A stretch of DNA of 29,880 nucleotides from a virus. This document shows, piece by piece, positions 8,476-27,763 of the stretch. The notes under the pieces were generated by a model that was given only the letters and a program-made list of their open reading frames with translations, did not search any database and had not been told where the DNA came from. The position numbers and the translations under genes are program-made. The DNA is taken from positions 1 to 29,880 of IMG/VR virus record IMGVR_UViG_3300049432_000214. The stretch is one strand, 5' to 3'. The stretch's first letter is position 1. Every line of letters begins with the position of its first letter.

Positions 8476-9729
8476 ATGCCGAATACATTCGAGTACGCGA
8501 CGTGGTTGGCGATGGAGAGTCTGGACCTGCTCGAAAGCAAGCGAGCGGTCTCAAACCACTTCAACACCGACTACAACAAGGAATTCAAGCAAAAGTTCCC
8601 CATCGGGGAATCCGTGCAGGTGCCATTTCCGCAGCAGTTCACCGTGCGGAACGGGCTCGACTACAACCCCCAGGCGATCAAGCGCCGCCACGCGACCATC
8701 ACGTTCGATGAGCCGTTCGGCATCGATTTCGAGTGGGACTCGGCTGAGCAGGCCCTTCGTGCGCCTCGCGGGAAAGAGAAAGTCTCGAAAGAGATTCTGG
8801 ACCCGGCCATGTCGCAGCTCGCGCAGGAGATCGACTCCCGCTGCGCGCTCTACGCGTACCAGAATTCGGCCAGCGTCACCGGGGCGCTTGGGACCAACCC
8901 GTCCACGTATGACGCCACGTCGGCCGCCGCGCGGCAGATCATGCAGGAACTCGGCTGCCCCGACAGCGGCGAGCGCGCGCTGATTCTGCCGCCTGCGGTG
9001 ATGCGCGCGGTCAAGACCGCAAACATCGCGCTCAACAACCCCGTCTCGGACATCTCGAAGCAGTTCCGCACCGGCATCGTGGCCCAGGCAGACGGCTTCG
9101 ACTGGTACGAGTCGATGTCGCTCTATCGCCACACCGCGGGTACGACCACCTCGCCCACGGTGACGACGACCCAGACCGGCACGGACGCGATCAGCTCGAT
9201 CGCCATCACCTGCACCACCGGCAACACGTTCAAGGCGGGCGACAAGATCGCCTTTGCGGCCGTGCTCCCGGTGCATCCGCAGACCCGGCGCACCTTCGGC
9301 GTCTCGACGGCGCTGAAGAACTTCACGATCACGGCGGATGCGACGGCGGTGTCCTCGTCCGCGACGGTCTCGTTCTCGCCGCCCATGTATGGGCCGGGCT
9401 CGCAGTACCAGAACGTGGACGCGCTGCCCCTTGCCACCGCGGTTGTCACGATGTGGCAAGGCACGACCTCCCCAAACGGCAAAGTCGGGCAGGTTGGGCT
9501 GGCGCTCCATCGCAATGCCTTCGCGCTCGTCGGCGTGGAGCTCGAGGAGCCCAAGTCGTCCAGTGTCGAACTGGTGAGCCAGAAGCGGGATCCCGATTCG
9601 GGGATCTCGGTGCGGTTCATCCGCCAGTGGGACTCACGGGCCTCGAAGATGATCAACCGCTTCGACGTCCAGATCGGCTACGGCACGTTCTACAACGATG
9701 CCTGCGCCGTCGCGATCGCCTGCGGCTAA
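8476..9729 (+). CDS. Major capsid (coat) protein, P22 gp5 family
   Basis: 417 aa, near the 430 aa of P22 gp5, with HK97-fold organisation. Starts 5 nt after the scaffold stop. Visible elements: N-terminal arm (residues 1-40), the FPIGESVQVPFPQQFTVRNG strand region (about 36-56), the long spine helix near 100-125, and a beta-rich insertion of about 100 residues (roughly 215-320) that includes NPQTRRTFG-like sequence (HPQTRRTFGVSTALKNF), which corresponds to the telokin-like I-domain of P22 coat. The C-terminal segment (SVELVSQKRDPDSGISVRFIRQWD) is also characteristic. A perfect 13-bp hairpin follows the stop. Confidence 0.93.
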   Translation: MPNTFEYATWLAMESLDLLESKRAVSNHFNTDYNKEFKQKFPIGESVQVPFPQQFTVRNGLDYNPQAIKRRHATITFDEPFGIDFEWDSAEQALRAPRGKEKVSKEILDPAMSQLAQEIDSRCALYAYQNSASVTGALGTNPSTYDATSAAARQIMQELGCPDSGERALILPPAVMRAVKTANIALNNPVSDISKQFRTGIVAQADGFDWYESMSLYRHTAGTTTSPTVTTTQTGTDAISSIAITCTTGNTFKAGDKIAFAAVLPVHPQTRRTFGVSTALKNFTITADATAVSSSATVSFSPPMYGPGSQYQNVDALPLATAVVTMWQGTTSPNGKVGQVGLALHRNAFALVGVELEEPKSSSVELVSQKRDPDSGISVRFIRQWDSRASKMINRFDVQIGYGTFYNDACAVAIACG

Positions 9730-9806: not shown

Positions 9807-10268
9807 ATGGCTCTTGGTACTCGACGGACCCCGGAACGCAATTCGCCGCTGCTCTCGGGCGTGGCGATGATCAAAACCACGCCGTATGAAGGCGTCCTGA
9901 CGACCGGCGGCGGTGTCGTGACGCTCACGGCCGCGCAACTGCTCGGCGGGCTGCTGACCCCGGACACCGACGACGCGCAGTCGCTCACCCTGCCCACCGC
10001 GGCGCTGCTCAATGCGGCGATCCCGGGTGTGGAAGTGGGGACGACGTTCGATGTCGATGTCGTCAACTACGGTGACACCACGCTGACGCTCGTCGTCGGC
10101 ACGGGCATCACCGCGAAGTCGCTCTCGGGCGTGGCGGCGGTGCTGACCGTCGTGGCGAATGCCTCGAAGCGGCTCAAGCTGCGCTGCACTGGCGTCATTG
10201 CCCAGGGCAGTTCGGCAGACTCGTGGGATCTGTACGCGTTCGGCAGTGTGGCCGCCGCGACGGCGTAA
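9807..10268 (+). CDS. Putative capsid decoration/head protein, 153 aa
   Basis: Starts at ATG 9807 behind GAAGGAG. The protein is almost all beta: alternating hydrophobic residues with TLPTAALLNAAIPGVEVGTTFDVDVVNYGD near residues 63-92, a pattern I associate with small trimeric decoration or head-fibre domains in phages. Position right after coat and isolation between two hairpins (9743-9775 and 10278-10306) suit a high-copy virion protein. No signal peptide, in contrast with the next gene. The decoration role is inferred from fold appearance and position. Confidence 0.6.
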   Translation: MALGTRRTPERNSPLLSGVAMIKTTPYEGVLTTGGGVVTLTAAQLLGGLLTPDTDDAQSLTLPTAALLNAAIPGVEVGTTFDVDVVNYGDTTLTLVVGTGITAKSLSGVAAVLTVVANASKRLKLRCTGVIAQGSSADSWDLYAFGSVAAATA

Positions 10269-10332: not shown

Positions 10333-10914
10333 ATGCGAAGAATTCTGTATGCCCTCACGATCGCGGCGCTCCTCAGTGTTGGGGTCGTCGCGCAGCAAAG
10401 CGGCGGCGCGTTCATGCCGTCGTTCAATTACACCATTCCCGGCGCCTGGACGTTTACCGGGGTCGCCACGCTCACGTCGCCAGTCCTCGTGACCCCGGCG
10501 CTCGGGGCGGCTACAGCCACCTCACTGGCGGCCACAGGTGCGATCCGATCGTCCAGCGCGACTGCGGGCGTCGGGTACGCCACTGGGGCGGGCTGTGCGG
10601 TCACGCAGATTACCAACCGAGCCACCGGAGTCACCTGTACGGGACTGTCCGGGGCGATTACGACCGATAACACCTCGCTCGCGGCGGAAGCGTCGGCGGT
10701 GTTTGTCGTCACCGATACCTCGGTCGCCATCGGGGACGTCGTGGTGGCTTCGATCCGGTCGGGGTCGATTGCGCTCAATACGGACGTGATCGTGTCCGCT
10801 GTCGCGGCGGGATCGTTCAGCCTCACCGTGGTGAATGGCAACGCTGCCGGCGGCACGGCGGAAACCGGCGCGATCATCATCAACTTTGCCGTCCTGAAAG
10901 CTGTGGGCGCGTAA
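10333..10914 (+). CDS. Signal-peptide-bearing beta-rich virion-type protein
   Basis: 193 aa; ATG with AAGGAG upstream at 10319-10324. Residues 1-20 form a textbook Sec signal: basic MRR, hydrophobic core, then VVA before QQ as cleavage site. The mature part is beta-rich and contains AVTQITNRATGVTCTGLSG followed by an ITTDNTSLAAEASAVFVVTD-type segment and a C-terminal IINFAVLKA; this layout resembles a repeat domain I associate with phage capsid-decoration and tail proteins. Two cysteines remain in the mature part. The contradiction between a virion-type domain and an export signal is real in the sequence. Function as decoration or fibre is inference. Confidence 0.65.
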   Translation: MRRILYALTIAALLSVGVVAQQSGGAFMPSFNYTIPGAWTFTGVATLTSPVLVTPALGAATATSLAATGAIRSSSATAGVGYATGAGCAVTQITNRATGVTCTGLSGAITTDNTSLAAEASAVFVVTDTSVAIGDVVVASIRSGSIALNTDVIVSAVAAGSFSLTVVNGNAAGGTAETGAIIINFAVLKAVGA

Positions 10915-11145
10915 ATGGATTTTCCACGACACGTGCATCGCGCGGGCGGCGAATATCTCCGCGTGGAGGACGCCATTGGACTCGACGCGGCGTTGGCGGA
11001 CGGGTGGCTACTGATGCCGCCGTTGACGCCGGAACAGGCGGCTGAACGGCACGCCCTGCAGCTCGCGGCCGGCGAAATCACGGAGTCCGAACCGGCCAAG
11101 GTTGACAAGCCTGAGCCGACGAAAGCGGTGCATAAACGTCGATGA
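10915..11145 (+). CDS. Small hypothetical phage protein, 76 aa
   Basis: Begins at the base right after the preceding stop codon and ends overlapping the gp4-like gene by 4 nt (ATGA), so all three genes are coupled. The N-terminal half (MDFPRHVHRAGGEYLRVEDAIGLDAALADGW) resembles short phage proteins of the type that carry a YPR-like opening followed by a region ending in a conserved Gly-Trp; these are common between capsid and tail genes and their role is unknown. The C-terminal 35 residues are charged (Lys/Glu/Pro) and probably disordered. Confidence 0.6.
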   Translation: MDFPRHVHRAGGEYLRVEDAIGLDAALADGWLLMPPLTPEQAAERHALQLAAGEITESEPAKVDKPEPTKAVHKRR

Positions 11146-11843
11146 CGGCTGCCGATCTCGTCACCGCGGCGTTGCAGGAGTTGGGCGTCCTGAACGCCGT
11201 CGATCCGCCGAGTGGCGAAGACGGCGCGCTCGGCCTCGCACGGCTCAACGCGATCCTCGATAGCTGGAACGCGGAACGCCTCGGGGTCTACACGCAAGTA
11301 CTGGCGTCGTTCACGCTCACGCCGAGCTTGAGCCCGCACACGATTGGACCAAGCGGGACGTGGGTGACGGCGCAGCGGCCGGTCAGCATCGAGTCGGCGC
11401 GGCTGGTGGTCAGTGGGTCGTACTCGCCGATCGCGATTCGAGACGCGGCGTGGTATCGCCGGCTCACTGTGCCGGGTCAGACCTCCGCGATTCCGACCGA
11501 CGTGTATTACGAAGAGGACTGGCCGAACGGGAAACTGTTCTTCTATCCGATTCCCACGGCGGCGTCGGTCGTCTCGCTGGAATCGCGCGTCGTGCTCGCG
11601 GCCTTGACCGCCTCTGACACGTTCACGATGCCGCCGGGCTATCAGGAGGCGTTGACGTTGACGCTCGCGGAGCATCTGGCGGCGCCGATGCGCATGTCGC
11701 TGTCAGGGGACACCAGACGGCACGCCGAGAAGGCCCGCGCACGCATCTTTAGCACCAACGCGAAGATTCCGACGCTCTGTACCAGGGATTTCGGGATGCC
11801 GAGCGGCGGGGGATCGACCTTCGACTATCTGACGGGGCGGTAA
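11142..11843 (+). CDS. Tail accessory factor, P22 gp4-like
   Basis: 233 aa versus 166 aa for P22 gp4. The N-terminal segment (TAADLVTAALQELGVLN, then a Leu/Asn-rich helix with LNAILDSWNAERLGVYT near 35-53) is the typical opening of head-completion proteins of this family, which bind below the portal and prepare the vertex for gp10. A beta-rich middle (residues 55-150, including Pro-Asn-Gly-Lys-Leu) and a helical end with EALTLTLAEHLAAPM follow. Its order, after coat and before a gp10-like gene, matches P22, but three signal-peptide genes are inserted between it and the gp10-like gene. No signal peptide of its own. Confidence 0.8.
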   Translation: MTAADLVTAALQELGVLNAVDPPSGEDGALGLARLNAILDSWNAERLGVYTQVLASFTLTPSLSPHTIGPSGTWVTAQRPVSIESARLVVSGSYSPIAIRDAAWYRRLTVPGQTSAIPTDVYYEEDWPNGKLFFYPIPTAASVVSLESRVVLAALTASDTFTMPPGYQEALTLTLAEHLAAPMRMSLSGDTRRHAEKARARIFSTNAKIPTLCTRDFGMPSGGGSTFDYLTGR

Positions 11844-11865
11844 GTTCACCAACAAGAGGGGCTGC

Positions 11866-13002
11866 ATGATTCGCTATGACGTTCGGACGCGGGTGTGGTT
11901 CCTGCTGGCGCTCCTGCTGGTGCTGCCTCAGAGTGCGCTGGCGCAGTCGGTAGGCACTCATCGGGGACTCTCAGCGGACGGGAGCGTGACGCTCGGGGTC
12001 GCCGGGATGGGCACGGCCTCGATCACGGTGTCGGGCACCTACAGCGGCACGGTCAACTTTGAATTGATCGCGGCGCCTGGGACGACAGCCATCACGGTGG
12101 ACTGTTTCAAGCCTGAGACGCCGAGCACGGCCGCGAATTCCACGACGAGTACGGGGTCATGGACGTGTCCAGTCGCTGGCTACTCCATTCTGCAAGCCCG
12201 CATGTCGAGTTACGGCTCTGGTACGGCGGTGATTGACCTGATCGCGGCAGTGGCCGGAGGCGGTGGGGGTGGGGGTGGTGGCGGGGGTGGCGCTGCCACG
12301 ACTGACGCGGACGACGCCTCGATAGCGACCGGGCAGACGAACGACAACGTGAACGCCCTACAGCAAGCCTACGACGGGTCTGTGTGGCGGCGGGTGACGT
12401 TCGGGACGGCAGGATCACCCTCGGCGCAAGTCTGGACGGTTCGTGTGGCGAACAGCGCCGGTCCTATCGCGGATGACGTGGCTCACGATGCGGTGAGCAG
12501 TGGCAACCCTGTGCCGGTGGGCGGGTATGCGTCTGATGTGCCGTGCACGGCTGTCGCTGCAAATGGACGCCGAGTGTATTGGTGTCTTGGGCGAAACGGA
12601 CAATCCTACGTCCAGCGCACGGACGGCACAAACATCGAATTACTCGACCCGTGCCAGACGGTCACTAAGCTCTTTGTTCCAATCGATCAGACAGGCGGCG
12701 AGCAACTTGTAACCGGCACCGCGTCCAAGAAAATCTATATCTGCGCGCTCGACATCGTGACCGCCACCGCACAGAACGTGTCGCTGGTGGCCGGCACGGG
12801 GTCTGTGTGTGCAACCAACACGGTCGGACTGGCGGGCGGGGCCACAGCGGCGCTTGGCTGGAACTTTGATGCCAAGAGCGGGATCAATAAGGGTTCCGGC
12901 CAGGCGGCGGTCATTGCGACAACCGTCAACGCCGATAATCTCTGCCTGCTCCAGTCTGGTGCCGGGCAAATCTCAGGGAGCCTCGCCTATGTCGTTCGCT
13001 AA
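11866..13002 (+). CDS. Signal-peptide-bearing two-domain beta protein with poly-Gly hinge
   Basis: 378 aa. Residues 1-26 are a Sec-type signal (basic MIRYDVRTR, a Leu-rich core, ALA before Q27). Residues 27-130 look like an Ig-like beta-sandwich (ASITVSGTYSGTVNFELIAAPG and a late VAGYSILQARMSS) resembling phage tail fibre modules. Twelve consecutive glycines (residues 131-142) form a hinge. The second part (150-378) is another beta domain with SKKIYICALDIVTATAQNVSL and NLCLLQSGAGQISG. The mature protein has eight cysteines, which fits disulfide formation outside the cytoplasm. Ends 14 nt inside the next gene. Receptor-binding or virion surface role is inference. Confidence 0.6.
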   Translation: MIRYDVRTRVWFLLALLLVLPQSALAQSVGTHRGLSADGSVTLGVAGMGTASITVSGTYSGTVNFELIAAPGTTAITVDCFKPETPSTAANSTTSTGSWTCPVAGYSILQARMSSYGSGTAVIDLIAAVAGGGGGGGGGGGGAATTDADDASIATGQTNDNVNALQQAYDGSVWRRVTFGTAGSPSAQVWTVRVANSAGPIADDVAHDAVSSGNPVPVGGYASDVPCTAVAANGRRVYWCLGRNGQSYVQRTDGTNIELLDPCQTVTKLFVPIDQTGGEQLVTGTASKKIYICALDIVTATAQNVSLVAGTGSVCATNTVGLAGGATAALGWNFDAKSGINKGSGQAAVIATTVNADNLCLLQSGAGQISGSLAYVVR

Positions 13003-14137
13003 GCGTGTGCTTGCGCTCGGTGTCGTCGTTCTCGCGAGTGCCACGCTCTACGCGCAGAACTACGTCGCGGTGCCTGGGGGGCCGATCTTCTATCCAGAGT
13101 TTCCGCCCTCGGGCTCGGCGGCGTCGTTGGCGTTCGGCAGTCTCCTGCTTGATGCGAACGCGGAAAAGGGCGCGGTCGTCTTCGAGGCGACGAAAGCCTG
13201 CAACATCGACCGCATCGAAGTCTCGACGCGCACCGTCACGACTGGCGACACGCTCGACGCGCGGATCGAAACCGTAGACCTCGCCACGGGTTTCCCAACC
13301 GGCACGCTGTGGGCGACGAATAGCAACGGGGCGATGGTCATTGCCTCGGCGGACGACAATACGTGGAAAGCCTCCGCGACACTCACGGCTGTCGCGACGG
13401 TCGCCCGCGGGGATCGCGTGGCGGTGGTGCTGGTGCATCCCAACACCGCGAATGCGCTCAACCTTGGCGTCCTCGCCCTGAGCACGAGCGTCCCGATTTT
13501 CATCGCGCCATATGGGCTGACCGATGTGGGCGGGGCGGGGTATGTGGCGACGGGCCAGCCCCTCGCGCTCGGCGTCCACTGCGACGACTCGACGTTCATG
13601 TATCTCGGCCCAAACGTGTGGCCGATCACCGCGATTGCGACGGGCACCGCCTACGGCAGCGGGAGCACGCCTGATGAAACCGGCGTTCGTATCACGTCGC
13701 CCTTCCCGATAAAGGTCAGCGGGGCGTGGGTGCATGGCGATTTTGATGCCGATGCGGATCTCGTCCTCTATGACGTAGACGGCACTACGCCTCTCGCGAC
13801 GGTCGCGATCGATAAGGATGTCCGGTTCGCGGTGGCAGCTGGAGGCGTGCATACGGTGCGTTTTACCTCCGACATCACGTTGGCGGCGAACTCGACGTAT
13901 CGGCTCATCGTGAAGCCCGGCGCGGGCACCGTGGCGCTGCGGGAAGTCACAGTGAACAACGTCGCCAATCTCGACGGGTTCTCGGGCGGGCAGCAAATCT
14001 ACTACACCGCCCGCACGGATGCCGGGGCGTGGAGCGACACGAACACGAAGCGCGTCCAGATGGGGCTGCTGATTTCACAGATGTCAGACGGGACTGGCGG
14101 GACGACCAAGGGTCACATCATCGGCGGGTCGTTCTAA
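12989..14137 (+). CDS. Signal-peptide-bearing beta-rich virion-type protein
   Basis: 382 aa from the ATG at 12989, preceded by CAGGGAG; a longer frame starting at 12809 is a shadow of the upstream gene. Residues 1-22 are a Sec signal ending in LYA before Q23. The mature part appears to hold two similar beta domains: residues about 40-200 (GDTLDARIETVDLATGFPTGTLW) and about 225-380 (KVSGAWVHGDFDADADLVLY, then NSTYRLIVKPGAG). These jelly-roll-like arrangements resemble modules in phage tail and carbohydrate-binding proteins. Two cysteines remain. The stop overlaps the next start (TAATG). No function can be proven from sequence. Confidence 0.6.
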   Translation: MSFAKRVLALGVVVLASATLYAQNYVAVPGGPIFYPEFPPSGSAASLAFGSLLLDANAEKGAVVFEATKACNIDRIEVSTRTVTTGDTLDARIETVDLATGFPTGTLWATNSNGAMVIASADDNTWKASATLTAVATVARGDRVAVVLVHPNTANALNLGVLALSTSVPIFIAPYGLTDVGGAGYVATGQPLALGVHCDDSTFMYLGPNVWPITAIATGTAYGSGSTPDETGVRITSPFPIKVSGAWVHGDFDADADLVLYDVDGTTPLATVAIDKDVRFAVAAGGVHTVRFTSDITLAANSTYRLIVKPGAGTVALREVTVNNVANLDGFSGGQQIYYTARTDAGAWSDTNTKRVQMGLLISQMSDGTGGTTKGHIIGGSF

Positions 14138-15063
14138 TGCGGCTGCGTGTGGGTGTGCTCGCGGCGCTGTTGGCACTGACGTGTGTCGTGGATGCCGATC
14201 AAGGGCTGCGCTCGCGACAGCGCGGCAGCGGGACGGCGGGCGGGAGTGCGGCGGCGTGTTCGGATTGTTTTTTGGAAGTGTCTTTTCTATCCGCAGATGG
14301 CTGGACGGTTGACGTAGACCAGAAAGCCGTCGTGGGAAATGTGTGTCCCGGCACTGCGCCTGGATTCGACAGTATCCAAGCCGGCGTCGATAACGGCGGG
14401 GACTGGGACACGACGGACGGAGGCTGCGATTCGGTCAAGACGACCTCGAACTACGCCCTCGGCCGCGGTGGGCGTGGCCATCGCACGATGATCGGGAACG
14501 GGCACAACAACGATAGCGGCGGTCTGATCTACGACTTCGCGGAAACGGCGCTCAGTGGCGGCAAGACAGACGCCCTCTACATGCGGATGTATAAGCGTTG
14601 GGAAGCTGGCATGGTCATTGGCTTTCCCGCGAATGGCGCGAATCAGAAGATCATCTATTTCGACGGCAGCAGTTGCGGATTTGTCGGCGGCTGCTACGTG
14701 TTGCTCGAAGAAGGCAACATCCGGTTCACGTCAAACGGCAACAATTCTAACAACACGCTGTCCGCGTGGGGCTGGACGAATCTGCATGGTGGGGTCAATT
14801 CCGCAACTGGGAATTGGAGCTGCTGGCAATTCGAGCTGCACAACGAAACATCCGATGCGGCGAATGACGGGATCGTGAAGGTGTGGGTAGACGGCGTGCA
14901 GCGGTTCCAGAATCTCGCGGTGAACTACATCACCGGCACGCTCCCAACAGGGTTTTCCGGCGTGCATATTCCGTCGAATGGGAACTTCTCGCTCCCGAAC
15001 GACATGTACAACGACCATGACGACCTCGCGTTCAGCGCGGTGTCGATGCCGGCGTGTTTCTAG
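14137..15063 (+). CDS. Signal-peptide-bearing lectin/lyase-like protein
   Basis: 308 aa from ATG 14137 in a TAATG overlap. Residues 1-20 form a short signal (MRLRVGVLAALLALTCVVDA before D21). The mature part resembles a concanavalin A-like jelly roll of the LamG/polysaccharide-lyase kind: DALYMRMYKRWEAGM near 145-160, a central NQKIIYFDGSS strand, WSCWQFELHNE near 226-236, KVWVDGVQRFQNL near 247-259, and the final DHDDLAFSAVSM strand. Eight cysteines remain after the signal. It could bind or cut host surface polysaccharide. Catalytic residues cannot be assigned by eye. The 3' end overlaps the opposite-strand gene ending at 15032. Confidence 0.55.
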   Translation: MRLRVGVLAALLALTCVVDADQGLRSRQRGSGTAGGSAAACSDCFLEVSFLSADGWTVDVDQKAVVGNVCPGTAPGFDSIQAGVDNGGDWDTTDGGCDSVKTTSNYALGRGGRGHRTMIGNGHNNDSGGLIYDFAETALSGGKTDALYMRMYKRWEAGMVIGFPANGANQKIIYFDGSSCGFVGGCYVLLEEGNIRFTSNGNNSNNTLSAWGWTNLHGGVNSATGNWSCWQFELHNETSDAANDGIVKVWVDGVQRFQNLAVNYITGTLPTGFSGVHIPSNGNFSLPNDMYNDHDDLAFSAVSMPACF

Positions 15064-15328
15064 GGTGGCGGTAACGTTGCCAGAGCGGCGTGCTGTAGAA
15101 CTCAGCGTCCAGGACGTGCCCTCTCCATTCGGGGGCGCGATGCCACGATCCGGTATTGATCCGAAAAATCAGATCGTCCAGCACGCCTGCGAACAGCACC
15201 AGAGGGATCGCTACCGCGAAGAACCCAAAGAACCACACGAGTGCGTAGGTGTGACGCCAGAACAGCCGGAGCCCAGTCGGTTGCGGCTTACTGGGGTCGT
15301 GAACGGGTGGTAAGGGCAGCCAGATCAT
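15032..15328 (-). CDS. Small membrane protein on opposite strand
   Basis: 98 aa from an ATG at 15328; a GTG at 15391 would add 21 residues. A single strong membrane segment lies at residues 26-51 (HTYALVWFFGFFAVAIPLVLFAGVLD), flanked by basic residues upstream and a Trp/Arg/His-rich tail. The plus strand has no credible gene in 15064-15513, and this frame is protein-like throughout, so the minus orientation is favoured. Its end overlaps 32 nt of the lectin-like gene tail to tail. It sits in the middle of a plus-strand virion operon, a placement typical of morons, for example genes that alter the cell surface or block superinfection. No family recognised; no clear ribosome-binding site. Confidence 0.55.
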   Translation of the reverse strand: MIWLPLPPVHDPSKPQPTGLRLFWRHTYALVWFFGFFAVAIPLVLFAGVLDDLIFRINTGSWHRAPEWRGHVLDAEFYSTPLWQRYRHPRNTPASTPR

Positions 15329-15416
15329 GGCGCGAGCCGCACGGGTGGAACAGGCCGATCCGGGAGCGGCAGATCGGGCATTTGGGACCACGGAGCCAGA
15401 GAAGGAATTGTTTCAT
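15288..15416 (-). CDS. Cys-rich mini-protein upstream of the membrane protein
   Basis: 42 aa from an ATG at 15416 on the minus strand. Residues 1-10 are hydrophobic/basic (MKQFLLWLRG) and are followed by CPIC at 13-16, then HPC near 24-26 and a further His, a possible small zinc knuckle. It overlaps the start of the membrane-protein gene by 41 nt, suggesting coupling. Upstream, at 15430-15442, GCAC and GTGC form a small palindrome next to a duplicated CTAGAT element that could be an operator. The alternative is that this frame merely overlaps an extended N-terminus (GTG 15391) of the membrane protein; the two cannot be separated by eye. Confidence 0.4.
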   Translation of the reverse strand: MKQFLLWLRGPKCPICRSRIGLFHPCGSRHDLAALTTRSRPQ

Positions 15417-15513
15417 GAGGGCGAATCTAGCACATCTAGTGCCACAAGAAACACGAGCAAATACCCGCACGGGACTGATGGAAAACATGCCACTGGGAGA
15501 CTTTAGGTAAGCA

Positions 15514-16986
15514 ATGCCGCCCTACGCTGGGTTTTGTGGCCCCTCCAATCCGTCCCAGTCGCTGCAAGCCGACTGCGAGCGGACGATCAACTGGATGATT
15601 GAGCGCGTTGAATCAGACGCCGCGCCGACCGGGGCCGCGCTCTATCCCACGCCCGGACAGATCGACGTGGTTACCTCGAACCAGCTGGAGCCCCGCGGCG
15701 CGTTCACCATGGCTGGCCGGACGTTTGTCGTGATCGGCACGGACTTTCTGGAGTTGTTCTACAGCGGCACGGTCTGGACGAGCACCAGCCGCGGGACGGT
15801 CAAACAGAACAACTATCCCGCAACGATCAGCGGTAACGGAAGTACCGGCGGGCAGTTGCTCATTACGTCGGGTGGCTCGGGCTACTGCTACGTGCTGGCG
15901 ACGAACACCCTCACGGAGGTGCTGCCGGGCGAAGCGACGATGGGCGGGATGATCAACGCGCGGTTCCTCGCGTTCAACATCGCCAACGGGAAGGTTCGGC
16001 TTTCGGCGCTCAACGACGGCACGACATGGGATCCGAATCTCTATTTTCAGCGCACGCTGGCCCCGGACCCGTGGCAGTCGATGCTTATCAACCCGCCGGA
16101 GATTTGGCTCATCGGCGAACAGACCGGCGAGGTCTGGTACGACACCGGCGCCTTTCCGCAACCCTTCGCCCCGATTCCCGGCGCGTTCTTCAAGTACGGC
16201 ACGCCGGCGCCCTTCTCCGCGTCTGTGGCGGGGGATTACGTGACCTGGCTGTCACGGGGGCGGGACGGGTCCGGCACGATGGTCGCGGCGCGCGGCTATA
16301 CCCCGCAGCGGATCAGTAATTTCGCCGTCGAGCACGCCTTGAGCGGCTTCGCGCGCGCCACGTCCCTCGCTGATTTTGAAGTGCTCGTCTATGAGGACGG
16401 CGGCCACCTCTACGCCAACTTCTCGTCCGCGCAGAACCGCAGCACCTGGACCTGTGACCTGTCGATGGGGATGGCGTGGCACGAGCGGGGCGTCTGGGAC
16501 GCTGCGAATGGTCGCTACGACGTCTGGGGACCACGGGTCCATACGTTTGCGTTTGGGGTGCATCTGGTCGGGAACCGTGGCAGCAACACGATTGCGAAGA
16601 TGGACACCACGATCGGCACGGAGTCAGACGGACGCGCGATCCGCAGGCTCCGCATCGGCCCGCCACTCTGGGCCAGCTCGCGGCAACGGCTGGAGGTGAG
16701 CCGGTTCGAGCTCAAGGCGGAAAGCGGCCTAGGGCTGCCGATAGGGCAAGGTTCAGATCCGATGGTCATGCTGCGGACGAGCAGGAATGCGAAGACGTGG
16801 GGATCGGAGCGGATGGCGAGTGCGGGCAAGATGGGCGACTACGATCGGCGGATCGTCTGGACGCGTTGCGGGTCGAGTGATTCGATGTGGGTTCCCGAAG
16901 TCACCGTGAGCGATCCCACGCCGTGGCGATTGAGCGGCGCGGAGATTGACGGGTCCGGATTCCAGCAGGCGAGGGCCGCCGCGTGA
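15514..16986 (+). CDS. P22 gp10-like tail hub/packaged-DNA stabilisation protein
   Basis: 490 aa versus 472 aa in P22. gp10 hexamers close the portal vertex below gp4 and carry the needle and spikes. The opening (YAGFCGPSNPSQSLQADCERTINWMIE) with Asn-Trp, then ALYPTPG near residues 42-48, and the repeating WDPNLYFQRTLAPDPWQSM and INPPEIWLIGEQTGEVWYDTG segments near 170-215 are the recognisable blocks of this family. The rest is beta-rich, consistent with a propeller-like fold. Start at ATG 15514, following the minus-strand island. It ends in a GTGA overlap with the next gene. Confidence 0.85.
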   Translation: MPPYAGFCGPSNPSQSLQADCERTINWMIERVESDAAPTGAALYPTPGQIDVVTSNQLEPRGAFTMAGRTFVVIGTDFLELFYSGTVWTSTSRGTVKQNNYPATISGNGSTGGQLLITSGGSGYCYVLATNTLTEVLPGEATMGGMINARFLAFNIANGKVRLSALNDGTTWDPNLYFQRTLAPDPWQSMLINPPEIWLIGEQTGEVWYDTGAFPQPFAPIPGAFFKYGTPAPFSASVAGDYVTWLSRGRDGSGTMVAARGYTPQRISNFAVEHALSGFARATSLADFEVLVYEDGGHLYANFSSAQNRSTWTCDLSMGMAWHERGVWDAANGRYDVWGPRVHTFAFGVHLVGNRGSNTIAKMDTTIGTESDGRAIRRLRIGPPLWASSRQRLEVSRFELKAESGLGLPIGQGSDPMVMLRTSRNAKTWGSERMASAGKMGDYDRRIVWTRCGSSDSMWVPEVTVSDPTPWRLSGAEIDGSGFQQARAAA

Positions 16987-17468
16987 GCGCGAACCTAGCC
17001 GCGCCTCCGCTCCAGACCCCGCTGGTGGAGCCGCCCGTGCGTGGGCAGGCCCCGACATGGCTCATCACGAAGGCTTGGAACGAATGGTTTCGCAGCGTCG
17101 TGACGCGGGCACAGGATGCCGCGGTGGCGCTTGTCACGATCGCGCTGTCGGCGCAAACGGCGTCTCTAGGGTTGACCACGTTGATTCCCGTCGCGGCGGC
17201 GGGGCTCTACCGGGTCAGCTATCGATTCCGCGTCTCCACGGCGGCGAGTGTCAGCAGTTCGCTTGACGTGACGGTCTCCACGACGGAAGGCGGTATCGCG
17301 TGTCAGCAGACGAGCGCGGCCTATACCGGTAACGCGACGAACCGACCCCAGAGCGGGGCGTTTCTCGTGAAAGCGGATGCGGCGACCCCGATCCAGATCA
17401 GTACCGCGTACGCGAGCGTCGGCACGCCGATGGTGTACGAACTCGATTACGTCGCCGAACAGATTTAG
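16983..17468 (+). CDS. Beta-rich tail protein in the P22 needle position
   Basis: 161 aa, GTG start in a GTGA overlap with the gp10-like gene. N-terminus: Pro-rich leader followed by a short helix (WLITKAWNEWFRSVVTRAQ near 26-44). The C-terminal 90 residues are beta-rich: GLYRVSYRFRVSTAASVSSSL, a Gly-Gly turn, then QSGAFLVKADAATPIQIS and a Tyr-ended final strand. I recognise this layout as recurrent in uncultured phages just after head-tail genes but cannot name a family. In P22 this slot is occupied by the trimeric needle gp26, a coiled coil, which this protein does not resemble. Confidence 0.6.
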   Translation: MSANLAAPPLQTPLVEPPVRGQAPTWLITKAWNEWFRSVVTRAQDAAVALVTIALSAQTASLGLTTLIPVAAAGLYRVSYRFRVSTAASVSSSLDVTVSTTEGGIACQQTSAAYTGNATNRPQSGAFLVKADAATPIQISTAYASVGTPMVYELDYVAEQI

Positions 17469-17478
17469 AGGACAGCCG

Positions 17479-18372
17479 ATGCCGACACCTGTCATGCCGA
17501 CGCCGACGCGCAAGACCCCTGAGCAGCAGCTCAATGAGTGGAATATCGCCTTGCGGGCGTCTCCGGCGTATCAGCAGTTTCTCAAGGCGCGCGGCATCGG
17601 GGCGAACGGCCGTGCGGTTGGGCTGTCGCGGAGTCAACAGGGCGAACTGGAAGCGATGCTGACCCGCTCGGGGATTCCGATTCCCTCCGGCATGCACATC
17701 GACAACGCCGGGAACCTGAACCAAAAGAACCGGCTCGCACGCAATGTCGCCATCACGATCGGCATCACGGCCGCCACGCTCGCCACAGCAGGCGCAGCGG
17801 GCTTCGGGCCGCTTGCGGGCGCGATGGGCGGGGCGAGTGGCGCTGGTGGGGCGGCAGGCGCCGCAGGAGCCGGTGCGGGGGCGTTCGGGAGCACTGGCGT
17901 GGGCGCGGCTGGAACCTTAGCAGCGACCGGCGGCGGGGCTGCGGCGGCTGGCGGCGCGGCGGCGGCAGGCGCTGGGACGCTCGGCGCGATTGCCGCTGGT
18001 GGAGGCGGGATGTCAGCAGCCACAGCCGTCCCATTGGTGACGACCGGCATCGGCGCGCTCTCCAGCATCTTTGCGAATCGCTCCGCCAACAACGCCGCCA
18101 CGCAAGCCGCTGAGATCCAGGCGCGTGGACAGGAGCAGCAACTCCAATTCCTCAAAGAGCAAGAAGCGCAGCGACAGAAGGAATGGCAGCTCGCGCAGGA
18201 CCGGAACAAAGCGATCTACGACACGGAACTGGCGCGCGATCAGGGCCGGTATGACGACCTCCAGGCACGGATGCAGCCGTATCGCCAGTTTGGCGCGGGG
18301 GCCATCGGGCAGATTGCCCGGCCCATTTATGCACAGCAGCCGGGCACCCTCGGCGCACGGATGGGAGCGTAA
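17479..18372 (+). CDS. Probable DNA-ejection/internal virion protein, Gly/Ala-rich
   Basis: 297 aa from ATG 17479, behind GAGGAC. Residues 1-85 are a soluble helical region; residues 88-200 are almost entirely Gly, Ala, Thr and Val with hydrophobic stretches (AITIGITAATLATAGAAG near 91-108 and PLVTTGIGALSSIFA near 185-199), well suited to membrane insertion; residues 202-270 form a Gln/Glu/Arg-rich amphipathic helix. Position after the tail hub corresponds to P22 genes 14/7/20/16, whose products are injected with the DNA and form a conduit through the envelope. Start upstream at 17377 would overlap the previous gene and is rejected. Confidence 0.7.
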   Translation: MPTPVMPTPTRKTPEQQLNEWNIALRASPAYQQFLKARGIGANGRAVGLSRSQQGELEAMLTRSGIPIPSGMHIDNAGNLNQKNRLARNVAITIGITAATLATAGAAGFGPLAGAMGGASGAGGAAGAAGAGAGAFGSTGVGAAGTLAATGGGAAAAGGAAAAGAGTLGAIAAGGGGMSAATAVPLVTTGIGALSSIFANRSANNAATQAAEIQARGQEQQLQFLKEQEAQRQKEWQLAQDRNKAIYDTELARDQGRYDDLQARMQPYRQFGAGAIGQIARPIYAQQPGTLGARMGA

Positions 18373-18374
18373 CG

Positions 18375-19280
18375 ATGGCAATCGCGAAGTACGGGGAGTA
18401 CGAGGATCCGAACGAGCCGGCGTATGGCACACAGCCGTACGTCGATCCGAACGCCGCCCCGCCCGGTGCGCCACCGGCCCCTGTGCCGCCGGTCGATCCG
18501 AATCCGCCGGCGGCGGATCCGTGGGACACCGCGCCCGCCGATGGGAACTGGCAAGCGTGGTTTCTGCAGAACGTCTCGGCCTTGCCGGCCAATCCCGGTT
18601 CCTTGACGCAGATTGAGCCCAAGCTCCAGAAGCACGGGATCCAGGTCGTCAGGAATGCTGCAGGCGTGGCGGGGAAGATCCGGCTGCCGAGCGGTCAGAT
18701 CATCGACGTCGGGCGCAGCTTCTCCAGCGGCAACCCCTCCAGTATGGGCTGGCAGTGGAACGGTGGGACAGACAGCGGCAGCGGTGGGAGCGGCGTTGAT
18801 CTGAGTCAGGTCTCGGTGAACCCGGAGTACCTCGCCCCGTGGACAGGCACCGCTCCGACCGGCCCGGCTGTCCCAGAGTTTCAATCCCCAGGTGAGTTTG
18901 AGCAGCCCACTGGGGACGACGTGCTCAAGGATCCGTCGTTCCTCTGGCGGGTCGATCAAGGCCGGGGCGCGATCGAGAATTCGGCAGCGGCGAAAGGCGT
19001 GCTCAATTCCGGGGGCACGCTGTCGGACATCCTGAACTACGGCCAGAAGGCCGGAAGTCAAGAATTTTCGAACATTTGGGATAGGGCGTACGGGGTCTGG
19101 AACTCCAAGTGGAACAATGCACTCGGCGCGTTCCGGGCGCGCGAGTCGTCCTCCAATGACGCCTATCAGCGGGCATGGAGTCAGTACACGGACGCCCGCG
19201 ATACGCATTACCGCAATCAGAACGAGCCGTTTTCAAAATTGATTCAGGCCGCCAACATCGGCGCGGGCGCGGCGCGGTAA
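18375..19280 (+). CDS. Probable ejection/structural protein
   Basis: 301 aa, beginning 2 nt after the previous stop. Residues 20-55 form a Pro-rich disordered leader. Residues 190-260 hold a block I recognise from many phage virion proteins: DPSFLWRVDQGRGAIENSAA, then AKGVLNSGGTLSDILNYGQ and QEFSNIWDRAYG, a helical repeat ending with a hydrophobic C-terminus (LIQAANIGAGAAR). Such proteins accompany ejection proteins in P22-like and other podovirus genomes. Role is inferred from this block and from position. Confidence 0.65.
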   Translation: MAIAKYGEYEDPNEPAYGTQPYVDPNAAPPGAPPAPVPPVDPNPPAADPWDTAPADGNWQAWFLQNVSALPANPGSLTQIEPKLQKHGIQVVRNAAGVAGKIRLPSGQIIDVGRSFSSGNPSSMGWQWNGGTDSGSGGSGVDLSQVSVNPEYLAPWTGTAPTGPAVPEFQSPGEFEQPTGDDVLKDPSFLWRVDQGRGAIENSAAAKGVLNSGGTLSDILNYGQKAGSQEFSNIWDRAYGVWNSKWNNALGAFRARESSSNDAYQRAWSQYTDARDTHYRNQNEPFSKLIQAANIGAGAAR

Positions 19281-19284
19281 CGCC

Positions 19285-20673
19285 ATGTTCCAGTACGAGC
19301 CGTATCAGTCACCGCTCACGGGCTCCATTGCCGAGATCATGGGGCAACAGGCCCAGACGCGCGCGGGCGCCGTCGTGGCGCGTGGGCAGAATACCGCGCA
19401 CCTGATCGGCTCGCTCGGACAGATCGCGCAAGGAGCCATCGGCGACTACCAGCAGCGGAAGGCGGACGCGCCACGTCGAGAGATGGAGCAACTACAGCTC
19501 CGTGACGCGCGCCGGCATGAAGCCTCGACACAGCAGGAAGCGCAGCAGGAGCAGTGGCTCCGCAGCCGCATCGCCGATCCGTCTCAGCCACCGCCGTCGT
19601 ACGAGGAGCTGGTGTCGCATCTCGGCGCCCAGCGGGCCACGGCGATCCAGCAGGGCTTTCAGCAGGTGACCAAGGCGGATCTCGAGAACGAGACCGTCAC
19701 GCTTGATCACTTCGGGCGCGATCTGCGCTGGGCGATGGCGATGCCCGGAGGCATGAAGCAGGAAGCCTGGCAGGCGCTCAAGGGGAAGTGGGCCGGACAC
19801 GGGCTGCCGGCGGACCTGATCCCGGAGGAGTACGACGAACAGGTCGCCTCAGCGCTCCTGCTGAAGACACAGAAGGTGCCAGAGGCGAAAGCGCCGGAGC
19901 CGTTCACGTTGAATCCGGGGGATGTGCGGTTCGGGTCGGATGGAAAGCAAATCGCAAACGTACCACCGAAGCCGCCCGATGTGAATGTCGGGAGCTTCGA
20001 GGATTACTTGTCGCGGTACGCGGCCGAGCGGCATCTAAAGCCCGAGCAGCTTTCGACCAAAGACGTCGAGAACGCGCGCAAGAAGTATCAGCAGTCAGAC
20101 GACCGACCGTACCGGGATCCTGTGCCCATCGTGATTGTGGGACCGAATGGCCCGATGCAGGTCGATCGCACGCACGGGACCGCCACGGCGGTGACTGGAC
20201 CGGACGGGAAGCCGCTCGGGCTTGTGCCGACAGCCGATCAGCGCAATGCCGTCGTCTCACGCGAACGCGCCCAGCCCGTGCTGGCGTCCATTGCGGAGTT
20301 GTCCGAGAAGATCAACACGCTACAGGGCGTCTACGCGAAGATGGCCGGCGGCGTGGAGAAGCAGAAAGCGAAGCTGAACCTCGATGACGACGTAGCCGAG
20401 TATCAGTCGCTCGTCTCGATGTTCACGCCGATGCTGGCGCGGATGGTTGGGCACGTCGGGATCTTGACCGAGCAGGACGTGCAGAGCGTGCGATCCGGGC
20501 TGCCGCAGCCGGGAGATTCCAAGTCACTTCGCGATCGGAAGATGGCGCGCATTAAGAAGATCCTCGGTGAGCAGGGCGGGGGCGCGGAGAAACCCGCCCC
20601 AGCGCCGGCTGCTGGTGGCGGACTCAGTTATCAGGACTACCTGAACGCGAAAAAGAAGCCGGGAGGCGGGTAA
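19285..20673 (+). CDS. Probable internal virion/ejection protein, 462 aa
   Basis: 462 aa, starting 4 nt after the previous stop. Opening residues FQYEPYQSPLTGSIAEIM, followed by long Gln/Arg/Glu-rich helices (residues 20-100). Around residue 208 lies FTLNPGDVRFGSDGKQIANVPP, a short segment seen in many phage structural proteins. The C-terminal third is helical with RMVGHVGILTEQDVQSV followed by LPQPGDSKSLRD near 380-410, also widespread in phage virion proteins. No membrane segment. Analogous by position to P22 gp20/gp16 region. The stop overlaps the next start (TAATG). Confidence 0.68.
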   Translation: MFQYEPYQSPLTGSIAEIMGQQAQTRAGAVVARGQNTAHLIGSLGQIAQGAIGDYQQRKADAPRREMEQLQLRDARRHEASTQQEAQQEQWLRSRIADPSQPPPSYEELVSHLGAQRATAIQQGFQQVTKADLENETVTLDHFGRDLRWAMAMPGGMKQEAWQALKGKWAGHGLPADLIPEEYDEQVASALLLKTQKVPEAKAPEPFTLNPGDVRFGSDGKQIANVPPKPPDVNVGSFEDYLSRYAAERHLKPEQLSTKDVENARKKYQQSDDRPYRDPVPIVIVGPNGPMQVDRTHGTATAVTGPDGKPLGLVPTADQRNAVVSRERAQPVLASIAELSEKINTLQGVYAKMAGGVEKQKAKLNLDDDVAEYQSLVSMFTPMLARMVGHVGILTEQDVQSVRSGLPQPGDSKSLRDRKMARIKKILGEQGGGAEKPAPAPAAGGGLSYQDYLNAKKKPGGG

Positions 20674-22304
20674 TGCCGGATTACATCACGCATCCGCGCC
20701 ATCTCGGTGAGTCGGAATTCACCGCGATTCGAGATCGACTACTGGCCTCGGCGCCGGAGGGCTTATCCGAGTCGGATTTTCACCTCTGGGTTGCGCCGCG
20801 CTTGGCATTCGAGTTGGGGAAGGCTGAGACTTCAGCGCCAACCCCGGAAGGCAGCCCGATCGGCCGCTTCCTCTCAAATGCTGGCAGCGTGCTGAACCCG
20901 GCCGCGCTCGTCACGGGGCTCTACAACGCTGTGCGGCATCCACAGGACACGGCGATGGCTATCGGCGCGCAACAGGCCGAACAGGGCATGCAGGCCGTGC
21001 GAGAGTTTCGCGGAGGCAATCCCAGCGCTGGCGCTGGCCGGACGCTCGCCGCTGCTGTGCCAATACTGGGGCCAGTAGCCGCTGAAGCGGGCGAGCAGAT
21101 CGCGGAAGGCGACGTAGCTGGAGGGTTCGGAAAAGGGGCTGGGCTGTTGGTTCCGATGGGCGCCCCATCCGCAATTCGCGCGACAGCCGGCGCCGTGCGT
21201 CGTGTGGCTCCGGCCGGCCTGAAAGCCACAGCAGCCGGCGCGCTGGAAGAGGGCGCGGCGGCACGTATCGCCGATGTCATGACGCCGAAGGTTGGACCGA
21301 ACAAGACTCGGTTTGCGAACACAGCGGTCAAGGTCGCACCTGATCTCGTGGGCGAACCAGCAGTAGCCGGGGGCTGGTCGCGCGATGCGCTTCACGGCAA
21401 AGTTGGGGCGAAACTGGAGGAAGCCGCCGCTGGACTCGATGAGGCTGCAAACGCTCGGATGTCAGCGCGCACGTTTCCGACCAAGCCGCTCATTGATGGG
21501 TTACTGGAACGTCGCCGGGCGCTCACGGCTGAAGCTGTCGAAGGGAGCAAGGCGATTCCGCGTTATGCAGAGCAACCTGGAGCAGGCGGGAAGCCAACGC
21601 CGGCCGGGCCAGTGCGAGATATCCAGTCTGGCAAAATGAAACCGACTCTCCCGCGCATCGAGCGCCCGATCGGGCAAGACGTCGTGCCGGCGCCGAACGC
21701 CGCCCGCGTGGCTGAGATCGATCGTGCGATTGCGGAACTGAAAGAGCTTGGCCCGTTCACACGCTACGAGTCCATCCGGCGCATTCGCGAGGCATACGAC
21801 GGACCGGCGAAGGCGATTTATAACCCGTCGATGACTGCTGATTTTCTTAAGGCGCAAGGCGGCAAGATGGGCGCGGCCGATGTTACCGGCGTGCTGCGTG
21901 AAAACCTCGCGAAGTGGGATCCACAGACCGCGAAAGCGAACGCTTCGTATTCAGTGTTCAAAAGCGCGAACGATGTATTGGAGGCCGCTGCCGAAGCCGA
22001 GCGTGCGCGGCCGACGATGTTTCGACGCACGATGACACGCGTTGCGGGCGCCTCAGCCGGCGGCGGAATCGGGCTCCTGATAGCGGAAGTATCGGAGCAG
22101 GTGGCGTCGGCAGGATGGACAACGAAACTGAAGACAGCACAGGCCATGGGAAGCCTCGCGAAAGCGATTCAGCGCGGGGATTCAGGTCATGTGGCGAGCT
22201 TAGCGAATCAGATCAAACGGATAGGGGCGCAGGCGGTCACGCTGGCCGGGAACGCTACCAGCCCCAGCGGATCCCAAACCCAAACCACAGTACCAGCACG
22301 GTAA
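20673..22304 (+). CDS. Large virion-associated/ejected protein, 543 aa
   Basis: 543 aa, TAATG overlap with the previous gene. It is Ala/Gly-rich with several mildly hydrophobic helices: residues 65-90 (SNAGSVLNPAALVTGLYNA), 115-160 (LAAAVPILGPVAAEAGE and GKGAGLLVPMG), and GGGIGLLIAEVSEQVASAG near 470-488. The middle contains long amphipathic helices with Arg/Glu (AARVAEIDRAIAELKELG). Such large, loosely conserved proteins close the ejection-protein cluster of podoviruses and prophages. No enzymatic motif was found. Third-position GC looks somewhat lower than in the coat and portal genes, suggesting a different history, but this was not counted. Confidence 0.6.
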   Translation: MPDYITHPRHLGESEFTAIRDRLLASAPEGLSESDFHLWVAPRLAFELGKAETSAPTPEGSPIGRFLSNAGSVLNPAALVTGLYNAVRHPQDTAMAIGAQQAEQGMQAVREFRGGNPSAGAGRTLAAAVPILGPVAAEAGEQIAEGDVAGGFGKGAGLLVPMGAPSAIRATAGAVRRVAPAGLKATAAGALEEGAAARIADVMTPKVGPNKTRFANTAVKVAPDLVGEPAVAGGWSRDALHGKVGAKLEEAAAGLDEAANARMSARTFPTKPLIDGLLERRRALTAEAVEGSKAIPRYAEQPGAGGKPTPAGPVRDIQSGKMKPTLPRIERPIGQDVVPAPNAARVAEIDRAIAELKELGPFTRYESIRRIREAYDGPAKAIYNPSMTADFLKAQGGKMGAADVTGVLRENLAKWDPQTAKANASYSVFKSANDVLEAAAEAERARPTMFRRTMTRVAGASAGGGIGLLIAEVSEQVASAGWTTKLKTAQAMGSLAKAIQRGDSGHVASLANQIKRIGAQAVTLAGNATSPSGSQTQTTVPAR

Positions 22305-22455
22305 GTAGGACCGACCATAGCGCTAGCGAACCGATAGCAAGGAGCACTGTGTATACGCGCAACCAGATCGTCACGATCAAGGCTGGTACTTCAACTAGTC
22401 CGACCACTGCCACGCGGCGCCAATTTGGCATCGGGCGGGGAGTATACCACCTCAT
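22255..22455 (-). CDS. Candidate two-TM membrane micro-protein, opposite strand
   Basis: A minus-strand frame of up to 66 aa (ATG 22455, or ATG 22431 for 58 aa) with two hydrophobic stretches, VAVVGLVEVPALIVTIWL and VLLAIGSLALWSVLLTVLVLWFGF. It covers the end of the 543-aa gene, the 44-nt gap and the start of the spike adaptor gene. Hydrophobic frames can appear opposite hydrophilic coding sequence, and no good ribosome-binding site exists, so this remains a weak candidate. A small membrane protein here would be the second minus-strand one in this operon. Confidence 0.25.
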   Translation of the reverse strand: MRWYTPRPMPNWRRVAVVGLVEVPALIVTIWLRVYTVLLAIGSLALWSVLLTVLVLWFGFGIRWGW

Positions 22456-23653
22456 CCTCACCGCCGTCGTGTGGCTGGCTTTGGCGGTTCCGGCCGCTTC
22501 CCAGACCGGGACGCTTATGCCAGTCCCGCAACAGGTCTTTCTCGACGCCAGCGGCAACCCTCTCAATGGGGGGTTGGTCTACACCTACATCGCCGGCACG
22601 ACCACGCCGCTCTCCACCTATTCCGATCTGGCGCTGTCGGTCCCCAACACCAACCCGATCGTCCTAAACAGCGCGGGGCGCAATGCCGCCGGCGGGATCT
22701 ACCTCTCGGCCGCCAACTACAAGATCATCGTCAAGACCTCGGCCGGGGCCACGATCTACACGCAAGACAACGTAGGAGCTACGCCCCCGACTGTCGCCGT
22801 CTCCAGCTTCAACGACTTGTGCAACGTCCGCCTGACCCTGACGAGCGGCGCACCTGTTACGGCCTCGGATGTCACGGCCGCCACGGTCGTCTACGTCTCC
22901 CCGTACCGCGGCAACCGCTGCGCCACGTACGACGGGAGCGCCTGGAACATCACGACGTTCACCGAGTTGTCCATCAGTCTGGGGGCGGATGCCGCGAACA
23001 CGAATTATGACGTGTTCTTCTACGTCTCCAGTAGTGTCGCGACCGTCGAACGGGTGGCGTGGACGAACGATACGACGCGCGCGACCGCCTTGGTCAAACA
23101 GGACGGGGTGTACGTCAAGTCCGGCTCGACTACCAAGCGATACCTGGGCACCTACCGGACCACAGGGACGGTGGGGCAGTGTGAAGACTCGAAAGCGAAG
23201 CGCTTCACCTGGAACTACTACAACCGCGTCCGCAAAGACGTGCGCGCGGTCGATGCCACGGATACCTGGACCTACACGACGGACACATGGCGACAAGTCC
23301 GGGCCTCCACCGCGAATCAGGTGGCGGTCGTAGTGGGCGTGGCGGAAGACACGATTGACCTGACCGCGATGTCGCTGGCGGCCAACACCAATGCTGGCGT
23401 GATTCTCTACGCCGGGATCGGGGTCAACGCGACGACAGCCCCGTCCACCGCCGGGCAACCGGCCCGTGTCGATGCGCCGGCGGCAAATGCGGTCGTCGTG
23501 GTTCCGGCGGCCCTGCTCACGGTGCCCAACGAAGGCTATACGTTCTACGCCTGGCTGGAACGGAGTGCCGCCACAGGAACGACGACATGGCTGGGGGACA
23601 ACGGGGACAACCAGAAGCAGCAGAGCGGGATCTTCGGGACGTGGTTGTGCTGA
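22349..23653 (+). CDS. Tail spike/fibre adaptor protein with signal-like N-terminus
   Basis: 434 aa from a GTG at 22349 behind AAGGAG at 22339-22344; longer upstream frames overlap the previous gene. After a 34-residue hydrophilic leader comes a hydrophobic core (YHLILTAVVWLALAVPAAS) and a probable cleavage before Q52. Next is a spike head-binding-like module (residues 53-140): PVPQQVFLDASGNPLNGGLVYTY, then NPIVLNSAGRNAAGGIYLS and ATIYTQDNVG, the layout of virion-attachment domains in many phage tailspikes. The remainder (140-434) is beta-rich with four cysteines. It should attach the following beta-helix protein or act as a fibre. The export-type N-terminus on such a module is unexpected. 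Confidence 0.65.
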   Translation: MYTRNQIVTIKAGTSTSPTTATRRQFGIGRGVYHLILTAVVWLALAVPAASQTGTLMPVPQQVFLDASGNPLNGGLVYTYIAGTTTPLSTYSDLALSVPNTNPIVLNSAGRNAAGGIYLSAANYKIIVKTSAGATIYTQDNVGATPPTVAVSSFNDLCNVRLTLTSGAPVTASDVTAATVVYVSPYRGNRCATYDGSAWNITTFTELSISLGADAANTNYDVFFYVSSSVATVERVAWTNDTTRATALVKQDGVYVKSGSTTKRYLGTYRTTGTVGQCEDSKAKRFTWNYYNRVRKDVRAVDATDTWTYTTDTWRQVRASTANQVAVVVGVAEDTIDLTAMSLAANTNAGVILYAGIGVNATTAPSTAGQPARVDAPAANAVVVVPAALLTVPNEGYTFYAWLERSAATGTTTWLGDNGDNQKQQSGIFGTWLC

Positions 23654-27476: not shown

Positions 27477-27763
27477 CGGACATCCCCGGCTCCGCGACAG
27501 ACGCCCTCAGACGAGCGGGGGAGTTACCGCCCCTCCCGCGCGAGCACCCTTTACAGGATGCACTGGATCAACTTGGCACGTCTGGCGAAGGACTGGCGCT
27601 CGACGCCTCCCGCGATCAGGCCGGGCATGTCGGGGTGACTGTCGAAGGCACGAAGCACCTCGGCAAAAGTTGGACAGTCAGCGCGGCGGCCCAATGGGCC
27701 AAAGGCGTTGGCTACGCGGCGATCGGCAAACTGCGATGGACCCCACGGAAGACACAACCATGA
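27473..27763 (+). CDS. Hypothetical protein, 96 aa
   Basis: 96 aa, GTG start in a GTGA overlap with the holin candidate. The N-terminal half is a soluble helical/Pro region; the C-terminal half contains GHVGVTVEGTKHLGKSWTVSAAAQWAKG, which reads like two antiparallel beta strands followed by a helix. No signal peptide or convincing membrane segment. Not recognised. Its last codons overlap the start of the next gene (ATGA). Confidence 0.5.
   Translation: MTDIPGSATDALRRAGELPPLPREHPLQDALDQLGTSGEGLALDASRDQAGHVGVTVEGTKHLGKSWTVSAAAQWAKGVGYAAIGKLRWTPRKTQP

Follow-up and report, generated by a model that had tools for sequence, protein, structure and literature searches.

Predicted Sec signal peptides on exterior virion proteins of a P22-type podophage and a possible route of particle completion outside the cytoplasm

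Assembly of tailed phages is taught as an entirely cytoplasmic process. Virion proteins with Sec signals are known from the filamentous phages (inoviruses), whose coat proteins pIII and pVIII carry them and whose particles are assembled at the inner membrane without lysis. In P22, the tailspike is the last protein to be added and can go onto otherwise complete particles. The DNA analysed here (the window: the whole of virus record G000, 29,880 bases) belongs to a predicted P22-type podophage in which five genes, termed S1 to S5, were found to begin with signal-peptide-like N-termini, S5 encoding a tailspike or fibre. Sec signals on virion proteins are common to this phage and the inoviruses, but its head would be an icosahedron packed with DNA, built in the cytoplasm and set free by lysis. 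Judged from sequence, exterior virion proteins of this phage probably leave the cytoplasm by Sec, undergo periplasmic oxidation and bind to particles built in the cytoplasm once the cell lyses.

Compared with P22-type tailspikes (e.g. 7eeq), S5 has a homologous head-binding domain and the same neighbourhood of ejection and lysis genes, but it carries a 51-residue signal leader, and its signal-bearing relatives have gained cysteine pairs within the domain. On the basis of signals and cysteines, the window resembles phages Tunturi_1 and Tunturi_2 (PP887698, PP885685), podophages which also have a run of signal-bearing, cysteine-rich spike or virion proteins, although their genomes are larger (63 kb) and their gene order is different. 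Strong signals also occur in two cultured phages, Xanthomonas phage PBR31 (orf035; locus L007, 24674-25483; annotated as 'putative structural protein') and Pseudanabaena phage Pam5 (gp19, an unknown protein; locus L005, 17837-18304), but on single genes, which adjoin tailspike genes whose products have no signal. The open-access literature searched contained no account of tailed phages that export tailspikes or decoration proteins by Sec.

Predicted signal peptides in the window

Signals were scored with a home-made scorer which combines the von Heijne prokaryotic matrix, the best 10-residue hydrophobic core and the charge of the n-region, and which gave 10.7-20.2 for 13 Escherichia coli signal peptides. 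A preliminary description of the window had placed signal-like N-termini on the open reading frames (ORFs) at 10333, 11866, 12989, 14137 and 22349. These coordinates were found to be right, the scores range from 7.7 to 12.1, and the starts are plausible, with Shine-Dalgarno-like sequences at S1, S2, S3 and S5 and the start of S4 overlapping the stop of S3. All five possess the features of precursors for Sec and signal peptidase I, namely a basic n-region, an uncharged hydrophobic core and small residues at -3 and -1. Their features are as follows.

10333..10914, + strand: S1; signal peptide at ~10333-10392 (VVA/QQ), then a module common to phage proteins (phrog_18251, E 1.7e-20, residues 43-190); score 8.7; 2 cysteines in the mature part
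11866..13002, + strand: S2; signal peptide at 11866-11943 (ALA/Q), then two conserved segments; score 12.1; 8 cysteines
12989..14137, + strand: S3; signal peptide at 12989-13054 (LYA/Q), mature part without recognised relative; score 7.7; 2 cysteines
14137..15063, + strand: S4; signal peptide at 14137-14196 (VDA/D), then a possible polysaccharide-lyase or lectin-type domain (weak; PF14099, E 0.0042); score 9.5; 8 cysteines
22349..23653, + strand: S5; exported-type tailspike or fibre, C-terminal part related to the tail spike of Pam5 (residues 134-364, E 6e-13); 4 cysteines
22349..22501, + strand: S5 leader of 51 residues; long n-region, hydrophobic core LILTAVVWLALAV, AAS/Q; score 9.7; GTG start behind aaggag
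22511..22780, + strand: P22-type tailspike head-binding domain of S5, residues ~55-144 (7eeq_A, E 5.4e-8; tail spike 9vyg, E 4e-6)

All other virion genes of the window scored 5.5 or less, in agreement with the earlier remark that the intervening coat, gp4- and gp10-like genes lack signals, and the sole further high scorer was the holin-like ORF at 24459 (11.1). Windows from the interior of the S1-S5 proteins never attained the five N-terminal scores. When the first 60 residues were shuffled with composition kept, the score was attained by 10% of shuffles for S1, 0.1% for S2, 14% for S3, 1.8% for S4 and 1.1% for S5, so that S1 and S3 are moderate when taken alone. No relatives of S3 or S4 were found by single-protein scans of viral contigs or by tblastn of the phage collection, the match of S4 to polysaccharide lyase PF14099 (17.4 bits) falls under the Pfam cut-off of 29.9, and an AlphaFold2 model of S4 made without alignment was unusable (predicted local distance difference test, pLDDT, 32).

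The genes around S1 to S5 follow the P22 order on the + strand (TerL, portal, scaffold, coat, gp4-like adaptor, gp10-like closure and DNA-ejection protein, by PHROGs matches), and 3' of the ejection genes lie S5, a holin-like ORF with one transmembrane (TM) segment and an SLT transglycosylase; by this gene content the window is assigned to a P22-type podophage. The genes concerned are listed below.

8476..9729, + strand: P22-type coat protein (phrog_283, E 6.8e-60); signal score far under threshold
9807..10268, + strand: post-coat protein without signal, in decoration-type position (phrog_673, E 2.9e-8)
11142..11843, + strand: gp4-like head-tail adaptor without signal (PF24175 SU10_adaptor, E 7.5e-7; phrog_637)
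15514..16986, + strand: gp10-like head closure protein without signal (phrog_578, E 9.9e-66)
18375..19280, + strand: gp7-like DNA-ejection protein without signal (phrog_598, E 2.5e-13)
24459..24707, + strand: one-TM holin-like protein; hydrophobic segment, 5' of the lysis enzyme; no match in family searches
24704..25171, + strand: SLT transglycosylase (endolysin) without signal (PF01464, E 1.1e-14)

The ORF that follows gp10 (g16983), considered as a tail needle (gp26), gave weak matches only. Elsewhere in the window, a 468-residue protein (27748-29154) of repeat-rich look, possibly beta-helix-like and without signal peptide, gave no match in Pfam and PHROGs searches and is possibly a second, cytoplasmic-type spike. 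A DUF1353 protein (PF07087, phrog_1158) is encoded at 26588-27028, and a small ORF at 29477-29746, close to the right end, has a lipobox-like start (MRRSLILCVLLSGSC) and may encode a phage lipoprotein.

The docking domain of S5 and the cysteine pattern

By tblastn, residues 55-144 of S5 match the N-terminal end of tailspikes from podophages of Rhodoferax, Xanthomonas, Vibrio and others, and the domain is homologous to the solved head-binding domains 7eeq_A and 9vyg. Aligned homologues with this domain in named phages begin directly at it, with a methionine there, and the S5 leader is absent from all of them. In S5 the primary product does not begin with the domain: a leader of 51-54 residues precedes it, and only removal of this leader would make the domain N-terminal. 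Close sequence pairs show no changes in the leader. Matches of S5 to DARPins, which are designed repeats, were judged to be due to chance. Homologues that lack the N-terminal segment and start downstream, which the preliminary description had regarded as telling against a signal, do make up most of the S5 homologues; the S5 signal stands nonetheless, a signal of differing sequence being present at this position in 14 spikes. These 14 come from 121 head-binding spikes in the related loci described below, the other 107 having no signal directly before the domain (the signals being least certain in L234 and L235). In one of the 14 (L141) the signal and head-binding domain are followed by a recognised tail-fibre region (phrog_863, PF21722). 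Since it occurs both with and without a signal, the head-binding domain offers a natural experiment within one set of homologues.

A recount agrees with the earlier statement that the mature cysteine counts of S1 to S5 (2, 8, 2, 8 and 4) are all even. For a wider comparison, signal proteins of the related loci were reduced at 60% identity and obviously non-secreted ORFs (e.g. coat ORFs with an upstream extension) were removed by hand. Mature counts were even in 51 and odd in four of the signal-bearing proteins (53:7 before hand curation), at 1.6 cysteines per 100 residues, whereas signal-less proteins of the same loci (portal, coat, gp4, gp10, TerL and others) gave 70 even and 70 odd (Fisher p 4e-9). 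This p-value is optimistic because the sequences are related; the counts nonetheless vary over 2, 4, 6, 8 and above. Among the complete signal-bearing spikes alone parity was not significant (8 even, 3 odd). Cysteines within the head-binding domain itself were found in 10 of 13 signal-bearing spikes compared with 5 of 65 signal-less homologues (p = 5.5e-7). Usually there are two, at varying positions, and three of the domains show CxxC in place of the PLAGG typical of signal-less homologues, namely those of L249, L167 and L193 (13351-14676 in contig C236 of G001, an integrated Acidobacteriota prophage; PCAGC). The cysteine pattern of the signal proteins thus points to an oxidising compartment, and the gain of a pair in a docking domain is what selection would be expected to give after repeated passage through one.

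It could be argued that there are two pools of spike, one exported and one left in the cytoplasm by a slow signal or an internal start, and that the cytoplasmic pool alone is assembled. Two features of S5 are in keeping with this, an in-frame ATG where the head-binding domain begins and an unusually long n-region. That ATG, however, has no ribosome-binding site comparable to the aaggag of the GTG start, the other spikes with signal and domain run from a strong signal straight into the domain, and the cysteine gain inside the docking domain implies that the functional form of the spike is the oxidised one, so two pools are considered improbable.

Recurrence in relatives and cultured phages

An alignment of the coat of the window and two relatives (A5) retrieved 80 IMG/VR loci and one bacterial contig. 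Relatives were recovered by gp10, coat and head-binding alignments, while a single-protein gp10 scan of viral contigs found none, and a six-sequence head-binding alignment was too variable for scanning. ORFs were counted across loci at a signal score of at least 9. In the 80 coat relatives such ORFs numbered 82 of 1754 on the coding strand and 15 of 1695 on the opposite strand. The corresponding numbers for 71 gp10 relatives without this coat type were 7 of 1104 and 14 of 889.

Many coat relatives have the post-coat slot filled by a signal-peptide protein of a family other than phrog_673. In 46 loci the gene directly 3' of the coat encodes a signal and then a domain starting roughly A/QTxLTxTTLSAAV. 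This domain also exists in proteins that start right at it, with no signal and 0-1 cysteines (L143, L010, L012), and in the window the post-coat slot holds the signal-less phrog_673 type, the signal genes lying further downstream. A model of the signal family reached pLDDT 88.9, and its N-terminal 80 residues resemble the GP4 portal-tail chain (Z 10.9) and the VP1 capsid chain (Z 10.4); tblastn of the phage collection with the post-coat protein of L106 gave no match. Homologues of S2 score as signals in L115, L109, L135 and L127, and a further one (MW202554, 27039-29579) has the N-terminus MLNRLAKFCVLIGLLAAPVYA/QTP and is not in the scan list at threshold 9.

Chance, in the form of hydrophobic N-termini or wrong start codons that mimic signals, would account for S1 and S3 to the extent that composition-keeping shuffles match them (10-14%), and for either of these singly it is possible. 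For the group it is refuted by the recurrence in dozens of loci, the strand contrast, the cysteine parity and the exact placement before the head-binding domain, and as a general explanation it is extremely unlikely.

The predicted cleavage context is A/Q or G/Q in 47 of 55 signal proteins. This bears on the suggestion that the signals are uncleaved anchors, holding spikes on the inner membrane where particles would dock. Hydrophobic cores and positive n-regions are what such anchors would have, but the small-residue cleavage contexts with glutamine at +1 speak against them, as does the hydrophobic tail that a released virion would keep, and anchoring is regarded as very improbable.

The bacterial-contig relative is a prophage in a Candidatus Acidiferrales assembly (Acidobacteriota), with an integrase at one end and host genes (lipid A acyltransferase, squalene-hopene cyclase, epimerase) at the other. 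It has a post-coat signal protein as well as a spike with signal and head-binding domain, and the predicted signals of its host end in A/Q in 8 of 16 cases. A coat search of 396 genomes of this phylum found, besides the prophage already known (the one strong match), a clear but distant match and three weak matches. From this prophage relative, Acidobacteriota may be suggested as host of the window phage. The window also contains an HTH_17 excisionase-like ORF (1607-1831) which, together with the integrated relative, hints at a temperate lifestyle.

Tunturi_1 and Tunturi_2 are cultured podophages of Tunturiibacter (Acidobacteriota) (PMC11924767), a paper with no mention of signals on their proteins. 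In both phages gp12, gp14, gp16 and gp17 score 10.6-13.6 and gp13 6.8; the four large signal-bearing proteins have 10-34 cysteines. In Tunturi_1 (L170, 10371-23028) the five signal-bearing genes lie together as one module, each of their products has up to 32 cysteines, and gp17 has beta-helix and CHB_HEX_C_1 matches. A cause common to all Acidobacteriota phages was ruled out: Tunturi_3 and the structural genes of siphophage Tunturi_4 are without such signals, so that the host phylum alone is not the cause.

The signal-bearing proteins could also be exported without being part of the virion, with a task to perform in the envelope or the surrounding medium ahead of lysis, such as capsule or polysaccharide degradation, receptor blocking or superinfection exclusion. 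In favour of this, no virion domain is recognised in S3 or S4, the latter has its weak polysaccharide-lyase match, and L017 encodes a signal protein with a match to glycosyl hydrolase family 43. Phage-encoded exported proteins of the host surface also exist, such as lambda Lom (PMC12309495). Against this, S5 and 13 further signal proteins keep a domain known for docking on the particle, the genes belong to the head-tail module by position, the post-coat family is similar to virion domains, and in Tunturi the annotation of gp14 is 'tail spike' (also pectin lyase) and that of gp17 'virion structural protein'. A purely non-virion role is considered unlikely for the group, although it is possible for S3 and S4.

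Proposed export and late attachment

Export of the signal-bearing proteins is well supported as a prediction, and the retained docking domains suggest that the particle is completed outside the cytoplasm, most simply at cell burst. In the proposed sequence of events, S5 and the accessory proteins S1-S4 would be made as Sec precursors and exported to the periplasm, where signal peptidase I would cut them, usually before glutamine, and oxidation would follow. Heads, portal, gp4, gp10 and ejection proteins would meanwhile be assembled in the cytoplasm in P22 fashion. After the cell has been opened by holin and endolysin, particles that are almost complete would meet and bind the exported proteins, S5 by means of its P22-type head-binding domain. 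We infer cleavage, periplasmic residence and attachment for the S proteins from their sequences, attachment because the spikes retain a virion-docking domain. A podovirus is a plausible setting, as the P22 tailspike joins last and its addition needs no cytoplasm. A siphovirus, in which the tail tip is built early, would not permit late addition; Tunturi_4 fits, yet one phage is no test.

Several observations weigh against export followed by attachment. The scorer is home-made and the signals of S1 and S3 are only moderate. The head-binding domain of S5 has no cysteine, all four lying downstream of it. The coat tree shows at least 9-10 switches between the signal-bearing and signal-less post-coat types, and the post-coat N-terminal fold is also like unrelated beta-barrels (e.g. 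ATP synthase domains), which makes it weak evidence. Among the closest coat relatives of the window, L089, L091-L093, L107 and L113 have no convincing signal genes and only L090 has; the trait is accordingly patchy, though the stretches of these relatives mostly stop short of the spike gene. Tunturi_3, which grows on the same host strain as Tunturi_1 and Tunturi_2, has no strong signals. Finally, how a periplasm-folded oligomeric spike would reach the particle before dilution has no explanation.

The preliminary description had offered three readings of the signals. That of envelope-side components added during or after lysis is best supported, by the signals before docking domains, the conserved cleavage site and the cysteine pattern, the same facts disfavouring the inner-membrane anchor; S2-S4, in which no virion domain is recognisable, may alternatively be surface modifiers. 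Its premise that export of such proteins is not to be expected agrees with textbook teaching, from which these phages appear to depart. On balance, a tailed-phage lineage may well split its assembly, with DNA-filled heads and tail core made in the reducing cytoplasm and disulfide-bonded spikes or decoration proteins stockpiled in the periplasm and fitted at lysis, the export route having been repeatedly gained and lost.

Signals on virion proteins are classical in filamentous phages; extracytoplasmic assembly, if demonstrated here, would be a new assembly mode for tailed phages. Cultured Acidobacteriota phages exist in which export can be tested, and a signal with paired cysteines provides a sequence mark for exterior virion proteins in environmental phages. 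If export and late attachment are true, particles would be completed outside the cytoplasm, disulfide-bonded receptor-binding proteins would be usable, and exchange of spikes with other particles in a lysate could occur.

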